Source: Roseivirga misakiensis (GTDB lineage Bacteria > Bacteroidota > Bacteroidia > Cytophagales > Cyclobacteriaceae). Taken from it: a DNA stretch of 64,000 nucleotides. Under the pieces are notes generated by a model that was not told the origin of the DNA, did not search any database, and saw nothing but the letters and a program-made list of their open reading frames with translations. The position numbers and the translations under genes were made by a program. Positions 47,542 to 49,971 of this stretch are shown in pieces. Every line of letters begins with the position of its first letter. Positions within the stretch are counted from its first letter, which is position 1. The DNA lies in assembly GCF_001747105.1 (NCBI RefSeq), contig NZ_MDGQ01000003.1, positions 62,001 through 126,000 on the forward strand, read 5' to 3'.

Positions 47542-47997
47542 ATGAAGAGGATTATACTTTTTGTTCTTGTATTAGGAATTACTTGCTCGTGTACCAAAAG
47601 TAATCGAGTTGATCCTAGCCAAATTGTCGGTACATGGGAGAATACCGAACTTGATGTAGACATTAAAACCTACAATAAGACTAACCTAGACAGTGCACTA
47701 CAAATTGAATTGGGCGAATGGGAAGCCATTTTAAAGCTTAAACCAATCAAAACCACGTATTTCGAAGACGGTACTTTTGTAGCGAAGTACTTTGACCTAG
47801 AAGGTAACCCCGTTGGGGAGGAAAAAGGAGACTGGAAAATTGTAAATGACTCCTTGGCGATCAATTCTGCGGGATACAAAAACATCTACCATGTAACTTT
47901 CAAAGCCGACAAAGCAAGATTTATAAGTATCCTAGATTGGGACCAAGATGGCGACCGAGATGACCTGTATGACGGATGGCAAAAGAAGGTGAATTAA
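47542..47997 (+). CDS. Hypothetical lipoprotein (lipocalin-like)
   Basis: A 151-residue protein. MKRIILFVLVLGITCSC is a lipoprotein signal peptide with Cys at 15 or 17. The mature part begins QIVGTWENTELD, then has alternating strands (YFEDGTFVAKYFDLEGNPVG, EKGDWKIVNDSLAI), the pattern of small lipocalin-like or copper-resistance-NlpE-like lipoproteins in Bacteroidota. Near the end an acidic DWDQDGDRDD resembles a calcium-binding turn. Function unknown. A TATCTTTA near-match to the -7 consensus lies just upstream. Confidence 0.75.
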   Translation: MKRIILFVLVLGITCSCTKSNRVDPSQIVGTWENTELDVDIKTYNKTNLDSALQIELGEWEAILKLKPIKTTYFEDGTFVAKYFDLEGNPVGEEKGDWKIVNDSLAINSAGYKNIYHVTFKADKARFISILDWDQDGDRDDLYDGWQKKVN

Positions 47998-48186
47998 GCA
48001 AAATCAATATTCCAACTCAATAATAGAAACTAGAATAGTCAATTAACTAGTCCTGCCAATGACTTTTAAGATTCTTAGAATAAAGAAAGTATTAGAAGTG
48101 CATGGATATAAAAAAAGCAGTCGTTCCTGACTGCTTCTTGGTGTCGGTGCTGAGGGTCCCGAAGCTTCGGGACGAACCCCATTAAA

Positions 48187-48471
48187 TCACAAGTGTTTTT
48201 CGATAATGTCTTTTTGAATTTTATCGTTGCTCTTTAAACGTTTGATAAAAGCTGCGCACTTTTGCTTTTTGATAAAAGCTTCCACTCCTCGAGCATGCGA
48301 CCTATCTCGACATTGAAGTGTTAAATAAAATGACCAATCCGAGACTTGTGATGTAAAAGCACCCTTGAAAAATCCGCTATTATGCTGATACAATCGAACT
48401 TCTAATTCCTCCGTCTCACCAATGTAAAAGCGATCAATACTAGAAGAATATAGGATATAAACGAAGTGCAT
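48187..48471 (-). CDS. GIY-YIG nuclease family protein, copy 1
   Basis: A 94-residue single-domain GIY-YIG protein. The start is the ATG giving MHFVYILYSSS; an in-frame ATG 21 bp upstream lies in the terminator hairpin and is rejected. The family core is visible: VYIL in the GIY position, FYIGET in the YIG position, the Arg in EVRLYQHN and the Glu in RGVEAFIKKQK. All catalytic positions are kept. Such small proteins (UPF0213/YhbQ-like) are common in Bacteroidota; their role is unknown, and the fold belongs to DNA-cutting enzymes. It differs from copy 2 at only about five residues. Confidence 0.9.
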   Translation of the reverse strand: MHFVYILYSSSIDRFYIGETEELEVRLYQHNSGFFKGAFTSQVSDWSFYLTLQCRDRSHARGVEAFIKKQKCAAFIKRLKSNDKIQKDIIEKHL

Positions 48472-48554
48472 GAATATAAAAAAAGCAGTCATCTCTGACT
48501 GCTTCTTGGTGTCGGTGCTGAGGGTCCCGAAGCTTCGGGACGAACCCCACTAAA

Positions 48555-48839
48555 TCACAAATGCTTTTCGATAATGTCTTTTTGAATTTTCTCGTTGCTC
48601 TTTAAACGCTTTATAAAAGCTGCGCTCTTTTGCTTTTTGATAAAAGCCTCCACTCCTCGAGCATGCGACCTATCTCGACATTGAAGTGTTAAATAAAATG
48701 ACCAATCAGAGACTTGTGATGTGAAAGCACCCTTGAAAAATCCGTTATTATGCTGAGATAATCGAACTTCTAAATCCTCCGTCTCACCGATATAAAAGCG
48801 ATCAATACTTGAAGAATATAGGATGTAAACAAAGTGCAT
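48555..48839 (-). CDS. GIY-YIG nuclease family protein, copy 2
   Basis: A 94-residue near-twin of copy 1, starting at the equivalent ATG (MHFVYILYSSS). Visible differences from copy 1 are E/D (ETEDLE), Y/S (RLSQHN), S/N (HNNGFF), C/S (KKQKSAAF) and D/E (KSNEKI). The GIY-YIG core, Arg and Glu are intact. The upstream unit boundary carries the tRNA 3'-end-like fragment and a terminator hairpin, so expression would need read-through from tRNA-Val or a promoter inside the unit, which I could not find. Confidence 0.9.
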   Translation of the reverse strand: MHFVYILYSSSIDRFYIGETEDLEVRLSQHNNGFFKGAFTSQVSDWSFYLTLQCRDRSHARGVEAFIKKQKSAAFIKRLKSNEKIQKDIIEKHL

Positions 48840-48922
48840 GAATATAAAAAAAGCAGTCATTTCTGACTGCTTCTTGGTGTGGGCGCTGAGGGTCCCGAAG
48901 CTTCGGGACGAACCCCACTAAA

Positions 48923-49206
48923 TCACAAATGCTTTTCGATAATGTCTTTTTGAATTCTCTCGTTGCTCTTTTAACGCTTTATAAAAGCTGTGCTCTTTTG
49001 CTTTTTGATAAAAGCCTCCACTCTTCGAGCATGTGATCTATCTCGACATTGAAGTGTCAGGTAAAATGACCAATCCGAGACTTGAGATGTAAAAGCACCC
49101 TTGAAAAATCCGCTACTATGCTGATACAATCGAACTTCTAAATCCTCCGTCTCACCGATATAAAAGCGATCAATACTTGAAGAATATAGGATGTAAACAA
49201 AGTGCT
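48923..49206 (-). pseudogene. GIY-YIG nuclease family protein, copy 3, broken
   Basis: The copy next to tRNA-Val. It aligns with copies 1 and 2 along its length but has two lesions. The start ATG has lost one base (plus-strand GTGCATGAA in copy 2, GTGCTGAA here, at 49205-49206). A TTA codon is also now TAA, stopping after AFIKR (48971) and removing 17 C-terminal residues. An open frame does continue upstream through the tRNA gene, but that stretch is antisense-free read-through of tRNA sequence and not coding. Confidence 0.85.
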
Positions 49207-49217
49207 GAATATAAAAA

Positions 49218-49239
49218 AAGCAGTCATTTCTGACTGCTT
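49218..49239 (-). terminator. Terminator of tRNA-Val
   Basis: A 9-bp stem AAGCAGTCA / TGACTGCTT with a TTTC loop, read on the minus strand into a T-run, 8 bp past the tRNA. The same hairpin with small changes recurs at 48851-48872, 48483-48504 and 48115-48136. Confidence 0.88.
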
Positions 49240-49246
49240 CTTGGTG

Positions 49247-49321
49247 TGGGCGCTGAGGGATTCGAACCCCCGACCCCCTCGGTGTAAACGAGGTGCTCTG
49301 AACCAACTGAGCTAAGCGCCC
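49247..49321 (-). tRNA. tRNA-Val (anticodon UAC)
   Basis: A 75-nt cloverleaf on the minus strand: acceptor GGGCGCT pairing with AGCGCCC, D-arm GCTCAGTTGG, anticodon arm CCTCG-TTTACAC-CGAGG with anticodon TAC, T-arm GGGGGTTCGAATCCCTC, discriminator A at 49247. CCA is not encoded. It has a perfect promoter match upstream and a terminator downstream. Confidence 0.96.
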
Positions 49322-49336
49322 TTGTAATTGGGTGTG

Positions 49337-49367
49337 CAAAGGTAATATGGGTTTTGATTTATGCAAA
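49337..49367 (-). promoter_or_regulatory. Promoter of tRNA-Val
   Basis: On the minus strand TTTG (49367-49364), a 19-nt gap, then TACCTTTG (49344-49337), an exact match to the Bacteroidetes consensus, 15 bp before the tRNA 5' end. Confidence 0.82.
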
Positions 49368-49479
49368 TCCTTCGCTCAAATAATTTTAGAAAAATAAAGA
49401 CATCAATCGATAATCATCCCATAATGGATAGAAAAGGGATTTTTCATTAACTTGCTCTCCACCAAACACCAACTACTGA

Positions 49480-49971
49480 ATGACGCTTGCTGAATTCAAG
49501 AGCATTTTTGATCAATATCGCACGCCAATCAAAAATTTCTTGTACTATAAATCAGGAGATTTAGACCAAAGCGAGGACCTTACACAAGATGTCTTCATTA
49601 AACTTTGGGATAAGCGTGATGAGATTCAAATGGATACAGTGAAAAGCTATCTGTATACCATAGCCAATAACATGTTGCTTAATAAGATTCGGCATGATAA
49701 GGTGGTGATCAATTTCGCGGAAAAGAACAAGAATCAGCAAGAAGAATATTCTCCAGAATTCCAGCTTGAAGAAAAAGAGTTTAAAGAAGAACTGGAACAA
49801 GTCATTGGCGCTATGCCCGAAAAACAGCGTGAAGTCTTTTTGATGAACCGTATTGAAGAGATGACCTACAAAGAAATAGCCGATCGACTTGAATTGAGCG
49901 TAAAGGCTGTAGAAAAGCGTATGCATGGCGCATTAGGACATTTAAGGGAGCATATCAAATATAAAATTTGA
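49480..49971 (+). CDS. RNA polymerase ECF sigma factor (FecI-like)
   Basis: A 163-residue sigma-70 family factor with only regions 2 and 4. Region 2 (about 8-75) shows FLYYKSGDLDQSEDLTQDVFIKLW and SYLYTIANNMLLNKIR. Region 4 (about 105-155) shows MPEKQREVFLMNRIEEMTYKEIADRLELSVKAVEKRM. It heads a four-gene unit with two FecR-like genes and a TonB-dependent receptor, the FecI-FecR-FecA-type signalling set. In these the receptor senses a ligand and FecR relays the signal to release the sigma factor. The next gene begins 10-13 bp downstream. Confidence 0.96.
   Translation: MTLAEFKSIFDQYRTPIKNFLYYKSGDLDQSEDLTQDVFIKLWDKRDEIQMDTVKSYLYTIANNMLLNKIRHDKVVINFAEKNKNQQEEYSPEFQLEEKEFKEELEQVIGAMPEKQREVFLMNRIEEMTYKEIADRLELSVKAVEKRMHGALGHLREHIKYKI

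Follow-up and report, generated by a model that had tools for sequence, protein, structure and literature searches.

Small GIY-YIG genes beside tRNA genes and their hairpin-broken copies: a candidate minimal parasite of bacterial tRNA genes

Why should a bacterial tRNA gene be trailed by repeated copies of its own 3' region, each packaged with a small nuclease-like gene? The tRNA-Val locus of Roseivirga misakiensis raises this question. In the window, by which we mean the whole 64,000-nucleotide stretch of contig NZ_MDGQ01000003.1 analyzed here, three short tandem units with GIY-YIG sequence lie behind a tRNA-Val gene. tRNA genes are essential and conserved, and they are therefore natural anchors for selfish DNA. 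The original prediction held the units to be a candidate mobile element that targets tRNA genes and inserts at their 3' ends. Here we describe the array, follow its relatives across other genomes and weigh what kind of element it could be.

Results

An array built from tRNA-Val pieces and GIY-YIG genes

The array spans positions 48096-49259 of the window (Tandem Repeats Finder: period 368, 3.2 copies, 94% matches, score 2055) and consists of three tandem units of 367-368 bp each, 3' of tRNA-Val(TAC) (Table 1). Sequence, Tandem Repeats Finder, ARAGORN and Pfam all confirm the predicted tandem units with GIY-YIG genes on tRNA-Val; their place behind the tRNA was also called correctly, except that everything reads on the minus strand. 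From the tRNA outward, each unit runs from a tRNA-Val 3' tail through a terminator and a GIY-YIG ORF to the 5' part of a T-arm and an 18-bp palindrome, and beyond the third unit lie one extra tail and terminator. The T-arm in each unit is broken by GTCCCGAAGCTTCGGGAC: the remnants keep approximately nucleotides 52-58 of the tRNA, followed by the palindrome, and tRNA sequence resumes at nucleotide 64. With the real tRNA and three remnants, the array holds four tRNA-Val tails. The copied 3' region expected in every unit is there, tail and terminator included, but the two distal remnants have diverged tails (GCACCGAC vs GCGCCCAC). Remnant 3 is probably the displaced original tail.

The only ORFs of at least 60 aa within the array are the GIY-YIG ones, and the array has no integrase. 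It is bounded by a small ORF ending at 47997 and, on the other side, by a divergent sigma-factor-like gene. A nuclease gene had been expected in each unit; GIY-YIG sequence is found in all three, but only the two distal ORFs are intact. The tRNA-proximal unit measures 367 bp because a 1-bp deletion removed the ATG of its copy.

The palindrome core occurs three times in the window against 0.01 expected, and 0 of 100 shuffles reach three. With up to two mismatches allowed, the 18-bp palindrome has three copies in the whole genome, all of them in the array, where it interrupts the T-arms as originally noted; looser CCCGA..TCGGG palindromes number 23, against 10 for the reversed pattern. A search of the same genome returned no close GIY copy outside the array and one full-length match to tRNA-Val, the other three matches being partial (76-80%). 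Between 47900 and 49500, Rfam reports no RNA family besides tRNA at gathering score.

Table 1. Features of the tRNA-Val array and its flank in the window
Feature	Positions	Strand	Remarks
tRNA-Val(TAC), host gene of the array	49246..49321	-	ARAGORN; Rfam RF00005, 70.6 bits
tRNA terminator hairpin and T-run	49213..49239	-	GIY copy 1 starts right behind; from sequence
GIY-YIG copy 1, pseudogene	48926..49204	-	start codon lost, in-frame TAA
tRNA-Val remnant 1	48879..48916	-	T-arm 5' part, palindrome 48892-48909, 3' tail
Terminator copy, unit 2	48846..48872	-	from sequence
GIY-YIG copy 2, intact	48558..48839	-	94 aa; AlphaFold2 mean pLDDT 95.8
tRNA-Val remnant 2	48511..48548	-	palindrome 48524-48541
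GIY-YIG copy 3, intact	48190..48471	-	94 aa
tRNA-Val remnant 3	48143..48180	-	palindrome 48156-48173
Outermost terminator copy	48110..48136	-	loop diverged; array end; from sequence
Sigma-factor-like gene, divergent	49480..49971	+	outside the element; syntenic marker; name is a reading of the sequence

A putative nuclease under purifying selection

Both intact copies contain Pfam domain PF01541 (GIY-YIG; E 4e-10 and 3e-11, 40.2 and 43.7 bits, cut-off 22.6). Residues Y5, Y16, R26, H30 and E64 are invariant in 20 of 20 aligned rows, and in a set of 43 members Y5, H30 and E64 remain invariant, with Y16 and R26 conserved in at least 90%; the two tyrosines, the arginine and the glutamate are what we take to be the GIY-YIG active-site residues. 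When the confident AlphaFold2 model of copy 2 was used in a fold search, the first 13 PDB matches were UPF0213, Slx1 and the I-TevI catalytic domain, with probabilities of 0.99-1.00 for ranks 1-9 and none reaching E 0.001. A profile search places UPF0213 (1zg2, E 5e-12) and Slx1 (7cq2, E 2e-6) closest among solved structures. The protein is thus predicted to be a putative nuclease of the GIY-YIG superfamily with a UPF0213/Slx1-like fold. The profile and fold searches gave no link of UPF0213 or Slx1 to tandem tRNA genes, and Slx1 chains are longer and were solved with Slx4. Among nine proteins searched, no named NCBIfam family scored above its cut-off, and PHROGs gave weak homing-endonuclease matches for one protein and none for that of the window.

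Among pairs with 60% identity or more, dN/dS is about 0.04-0.18 wherever dS could be measured, and pooled pN/pS within arrays is 0.26 (37 pairs). Both values indicate that selection keeps the protein.

Related genes sit beside tRNA genes of many types

Relatives were found by protein search in 51 of 99 genomes, the window's own included, and listed matches that lacked a locus were fetched additionally; a scan of public genomes added 21 loci, of which 19 come from records whose titles place them in Bacteroidota. Run over 124 stretches, a profile built from 43 members gave 129 GIY clusters; L001-L007, L022, L023, L035 and L059-L061 had been dropped before this count because they duplicate the window stretch or L133-L136. 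For 87 of the 129 clusters, a tRNA gene on the same strand lies upstream at a distance of at most 250 bp. A tRNA gene or remnant on either side accompanies 110 of 129, against 29 of 323 control stretches in the same loci. By position, the tRNA is upstream in 79 clusters, on both sides in 8 and downstream in 6, and 17 have a remnant only. Neither was seen in 13, which are mostly weak profile hits, nor in a further 6 near a stretch end. In a separate phylum draw of 296 genomes, 144 had a match at E 1e-12; among its 29 best-scoring loci, all drawn from outside the first 99 genomes and with the window's own genome (L182) left out, 27 of 29 clusters lie behind a tRNA. Because all samples were chosen by similarity to the window protein or to the profile, the tRNA link characterizes this GIY-YIG subfamily rather than GIY-YIG genes in general.

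The upstream tRNAs are labeled Val, Asn, Asp, Met, Ala, Gly, Pro, Phe, Thr, Leu, His, Ser, Arg, Lys and Glu, with one doubtful SeC, each label being the ARAGORN call for the nearest upstream tRNA. Copies behind different tRNA genes, often with remnants of the same tRNA, are what the original prediction had anticipated; neither confinement to tRNA-Val nor absence of a tRNA link in other genomes was found. Some cassettes lie 5' of their tRNA. Three loci (L095, L103 and L127) carry the label Gly while their remnants belong to a downstream tRNA-Leu, and their order is mirrored: a tRNA-Leu head interrupted by a CCTGCC-type palindrome, the GIY gene, and then intact tRNA-Leu.

Tandem arrangement is seen in 49 of 158 clusters. 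Of 224 copies, 168 are full length; the others are broken or truncated at contig or stretch ends, truncated ones being scored as not full length in this count. In one stretch (L134:2487 to about 14230, G008:C1), four tRNA-Asn-type GIY genes of equal profile score lie 1.9 to 6 kb apart, and intact tRNA-Asn adjoins only the first. Relatives also occur beside tRNA-Ser and tRNA-Pro in records that bear the titles Candidatus Dojkabacteria and Kiritimatiellae (L055 and L056), so the tRNA link may reach beyond Bacteroidota or these bins may be contaminated; the L056 match covers 20 residues only. Carriage by phages or plasmids was rejected: tblastn of the window protein at E 0.01 gave no match in 50,697 phage records or in the plasmid collections.

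A tree of 135 proteins, 99 tips of which carry a tRNA label, shows 32 label changes, compared with a mean of 72 (minimum 66) after shuffling and 66 (minimum 60) after shuffling within families. The first 70 aa alone give 33 changes against 72, so overlap of the C terminus with the tRNA is not the cause of this signal. Outside the window's family there are 20 changes against 31.5 shuffled (44 tips), and lineages are thus largely tied to tRNA type across families. Such lineages fit target specificity, and they also fit old vertical inheritance.

Hairpins replace tRNA arms in the remnants

A hairpin and T-run separate tRNA and ORF in 86 of 96 tRNA-linked clusters whose first ORF starts with Met within 160 bp, a count made without a shuffled control. 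The median gap between tRNA and ORF is 44 bp, with the start codon a median of 5 nt past the T-run, and from this spacing behind a terminator-like hairpin we infer that the ORF is likely expressed by read-through.

Remnants of the same tRNA are common 3' of the ORF. A foreign palindrome flanked on both sides by tRNA sequence lies behind the ORF in 70 of 114 tRNA-linked clusters (97 of 170 ORFs), and none was found in the other 44. The corresponding counts are 0 of 114 in shuffled DNA (5 runs), 1 of 114 in reversed DNA and 2-6 of 114 when the search used a tRNA of a different type (5 runs). A first tally of 73 of 114 had included at least two T-arm repeats of the tRNA itself (L045 and L047); the count of 70 leaves out palindromes that belong to the tRNA and adds the controls. 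The palindrome lies mainly in the anticodon arm (37 of 70) or the T arm (27), and elsewhere in 6. In 16 clusters (Ala 8, Val 5, Pro 3) the anticodon arm is replaced to within 1 nt. CCGA occurs in 57 of the 70 palindromes, typically as TCCCGA..TCGGGA. Remnant boundaries derive from short ungapped matches and some are approximate, such as the left edge at L133. The breakpoint thus falls inside the tRNA gene, in the anticodon or T arm, and together with the cassettes found 5' of their tRNA this does not support the prediction of insertion simply at the tRNA 3' end. By the first tally, the ORF stop falls within the matched remnant for 60 of 100 remnants, part of these matches being short, so some protein tails are encoded by tRNA sequence; in the same tally 18 of 170 ORFs had a remnant without a palindrome and 52 of 170 had no remnant found.

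Partial tRNA heads also occur upstream of tRNA genes, many of them with a hairpin: at 39 of 117 GIY-adjacent tRNAs and at 19 of 46 other tRNAs; among these 46 are tRNAs that lie downstream of a GIY gene, and all come from loci selected for their GIY genes or palindromes. In the window's own genome (L242:1440-1630; G000:C5, about 2203940-2204130), two tandem partial tRNA-Arg heads, both broken by a CCCGA..TCGGG palindrome, precede the tRNA-Arg gene, and no GIY gene was found nearby; the hairpin swap is therefore not strictly tied to a GIY gene. Another stretch of this genome (L226, ~1501; G000:C5:777079) has no intact tRNA and holds a tRNA-Met-like T arm and acceptor fragment broken by a CCCGAAGTTTCGGG palindrome.

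We also considered whether the nuclease has a palindrome dispersed over the whole genome as its partner. Genomes with more GIY matches have higher counts of CCCGAN{2,8}TCGGG relative to the reversed-pattern control (Spearman 0.57 over 99 genomes and 0.64 in the family), a correlation blind to kinship. We give this candidate little weight, as several matches in the window's genome read as ordinary terminators and the 15 sampled places in G049, which has one of the two highest palindrome counts, mostly look like another dispersed repeat; none of these 15 stretches has a tRNA. The G049 stretches (L227-L241) show dispersed repeats with TCCCGA..TCGGGA palindromes, several with common flanks (GCCTGTCCCGAATTTATTTCGGGAGAATCTCGCA).

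Presence, decay and absence at one site within the genus

The sigma-factor gene beside the array has strong matches (E <1e-75) in 16 of 19 genus genomes, the window's own included, and tRNA-Val could be read next to it in 15 (G018 is outside these 15). GIY sequence is present in 8, absent in 3 and reduced to a tRNA-tail scar in 2, and in 2 the contig ends at the site (G009 and G010). R. misakiensis (G000) has three copies, G001 one, G012 four and G014 two, G005 has a relic, and in G003, G006 and G013 a GIY sequence starts and runs into the contig end. The 420 bp read in G002, G007 and G016 has no GIY sequence, the tRNA of G016 differing in sequence, and G004 and G011 have the tail scar without the ORF. 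The gene-less sites predicted for relatives are thus found in five congeners, two of them scarred, with presence and absence read at species level from one genome each. Draft contigs of five congeners (L153, L154, L160, L161 and L165) end at or near the tRNA-Val site, as tandem arrays would predict, and array copy numbers in public drafts may therefore be underestimates.

On a tree of 18 proteins, every one of the five arrays forms a group of its own, with starred support for three. Copies within an array thus group by species, and amplification was recent or concerted. The GIY protein of G001 is nearer to those of G003 and G014 (63 and 60% identity) than to that of G000 (54%), contrary to the sigma factor, with dS saturated in most pairs. 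These distances hint at lateral exchange inside the genus, which the AU test does not support: the sigma-factor grouping, that is, vertical descent in the genus, is not rejected on the 18-protein tree (p 0.33).

Discussion

The reading we favor, with a probability of roughly 45%, is a homing-like, minimal selfish nuclease cassette that parasitizes tRNA genes of one type, preserves an intact host tRNA and multiplies in tandem. A one-domain UPF0213/Slx1-like nuclease, probably expressed weakly through transcription past the tRNA terminator, would cut the tRNA gene of its own isotype within the anticodon or T arm. Recombination repair would keep a complete tRNA and place the cassette beside it, and the displaced tRNA piece would stay as a remnant in which a hairpin replaces the cut region and makes it uncuttable. 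Identical tails would then let tandem units expand and shrink, and copies would decay and be lost. Cutting, its site, copying into empty sites and the role of the hairpin are the conjectural parts of this cycle. A structure-specific nuclease is an attractive idea given the arm swaps and the Slx1-like fold. The original idea of a mobile unit aimed at tRNA genes is borne out in its predictions on tRNA linkage and gene-less sites but not in simple insertion at the 3' end.

The closest known system is SegB, a free-standing GIY-YIG homing endonuclease of T-even phages, which also has its gene beside tRNA genes; it is reported to cleave inside tRNA genes and to bring about tandem amplification of tRNA-Tyr together with segB (PMC13096335). 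The cassettes described here differ in residing on bacterial chromosomes, in encoding proteins of mostly about 80-100 aa in which no added DNA-binding domain is seen, in being tied to tRNA types, and in their tRNA remnants, where a palindrome takes the place of an arm. The SegB motif RAWTSGAAC, reported for 23 of 83 sites (PMC13096335), matches the T-loop of the window's tRNA-Val at 49259, the sole match on either strand of 48001-49400, with none in the remnants. As a candidate general target, this motif fits the window but was set aside, since across the other loci its presence does not tell which arm is broken (Fisher p 0.78, first palindrome tally). Two traits of free-standing homing endonucleases are present here, a gene beside its presumed target and, at species level, presence and absence at one orthologous site. 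A third, destruction of the target in the bearing allele, is absent if the tRNA gene is the target, as the intact tRNA keeps the motif. The supposed target thus persists in element-bearing alleles and is not destroyed as in classic homing, which is a weak point of the homing-like reading. Another is the recurring CCGA palindrome core, which plain break repair does not explain. Also counted against it are vertical descent not rejected in the genus, the Fisher result, the 44 of 114 clusters without a palindrome, the hairpin-bearing heads without a GIY gene and the lack of phage or plasmid matches.

Genomic islands at tRNA 3' ends leave an intact tRNA and have a duplicate 3' fragment at their far end. 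The array is alike in both, but it has no integrase, its unit is 368 bp, its duplicate is broken by a hairpin and the breakpoint lies inside an arm. REP/RAYT systems likewise have small palindromes near a small nuclease-type gene; theirs is a Y1 transposase rather than a GIY-YIG domain, and the 18-bp palindrome is confined to the array in this genome rather than dispersed.

Alternatively, the gene could be a passenger. tRNA genes duplicated in tandem by unequal recombination would leave dying surplus copies that collect a dispersed palindromic repeat, and an Slx1-like gene would ride along, inherited vertically with its tRNA. We consider this unlikely, but it has several observations on its side: hairpin-bearing remnants without a nearby GIY gene, tRNA heads at 19 of 46 tRNAs not counted as GIY-adjacent (in loci picked as stated above), palindromes away from tRNAs in some genomes, and the AU result. 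It does not readily account for a GIY gene at a constant position behind many tRNA types phylum-wide, for the restriction of the 18-bp palindrome to the array in the window's genome, or for purifying selection beside pseudogenes and absence in congeners, which would need a reason.

The nuclease could instead act on the tRNA itself, with co-transcribed, hairpin-swapped remnants serving as uncuttable decoys or RNA antitoxins. This would be a little like type III toxin-antitoxin loci, in which a terminator lies between RNA repeats and the toxin gene, and the terminator-like hairpin before the ORF, the swaps to within 1 nt and remnants both upstream and downstream would suit it. A fusion of an Slx1-like GIY-YIG domain with a TrmH-like tRNA methyltransferase, reported in a 2006 survey (PMC1564403), points the same way. 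Such a role is nonetheless improbable, as downstream remnants mostly lack the 5' acceptor strand (the matched remnant begins at tRNA nucleotide 1 in 4 of 100 rows) and so could not close a cloverleaf, the swapped arm varies, and many ORFs have a palindrome-less remnant or none found. A domesticated, structure-specific nuclease that serves the host by maintaining tRNA genes in repair or at useful copy number would agree with low dN/dS, with a host tRNA-Val that is single-copy at full length and with the Slx1-like profile and fold matches, but is made quite improbable by patchy presence at the orthologous site, by the relic and scars in congeners, and by the finding that, in the arrays read, it is broken tRNA copies that have multiplied.

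A bolder form of the homing-like reading, which we regard as doubtful, is a phylum-wide class of tRNA-gene parasites that act through the shape of DNA (or RNA). An Slx1-like nuclease would cut at the base of an arm, the arm would be exchanged for a recurring hairpin that renders the copy uncuttable, one true tRNA would always be kept, and each nuclease lineage would be tied to one tRNA type.

Searching the 2006 superfamily survey (PMC1564403) for the words Bacteroid, Cytophaga or UPF0213 gave no instance, and among the matches listed in open-licence PubMed Central full text there is no description of tRNA-linked GIY-YIG arrays in bacterial chromosomes. New with respect to these matches are a putative minimal parasite of one gene, lineages specific to tRNA type and hairpin-swapped tRNA remnants. 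A tiny nuclease gene beside tRNA genes, often in tandem and with hairpin-swapped tRNA copies, looks like an undescribed parasite of tRNA genes. If so, it would extend to bacterial chromosomes the idea drawn from SegB, nuclease-driven tandem amplification at tRNA genes, and would open to experiment the questions of which target a 94-aa GIY-YIG protein recognizes, how an essential gene withstands a nuclease directed at it, and for what reason a hairpin takes the place of a tRNA arm to the base.
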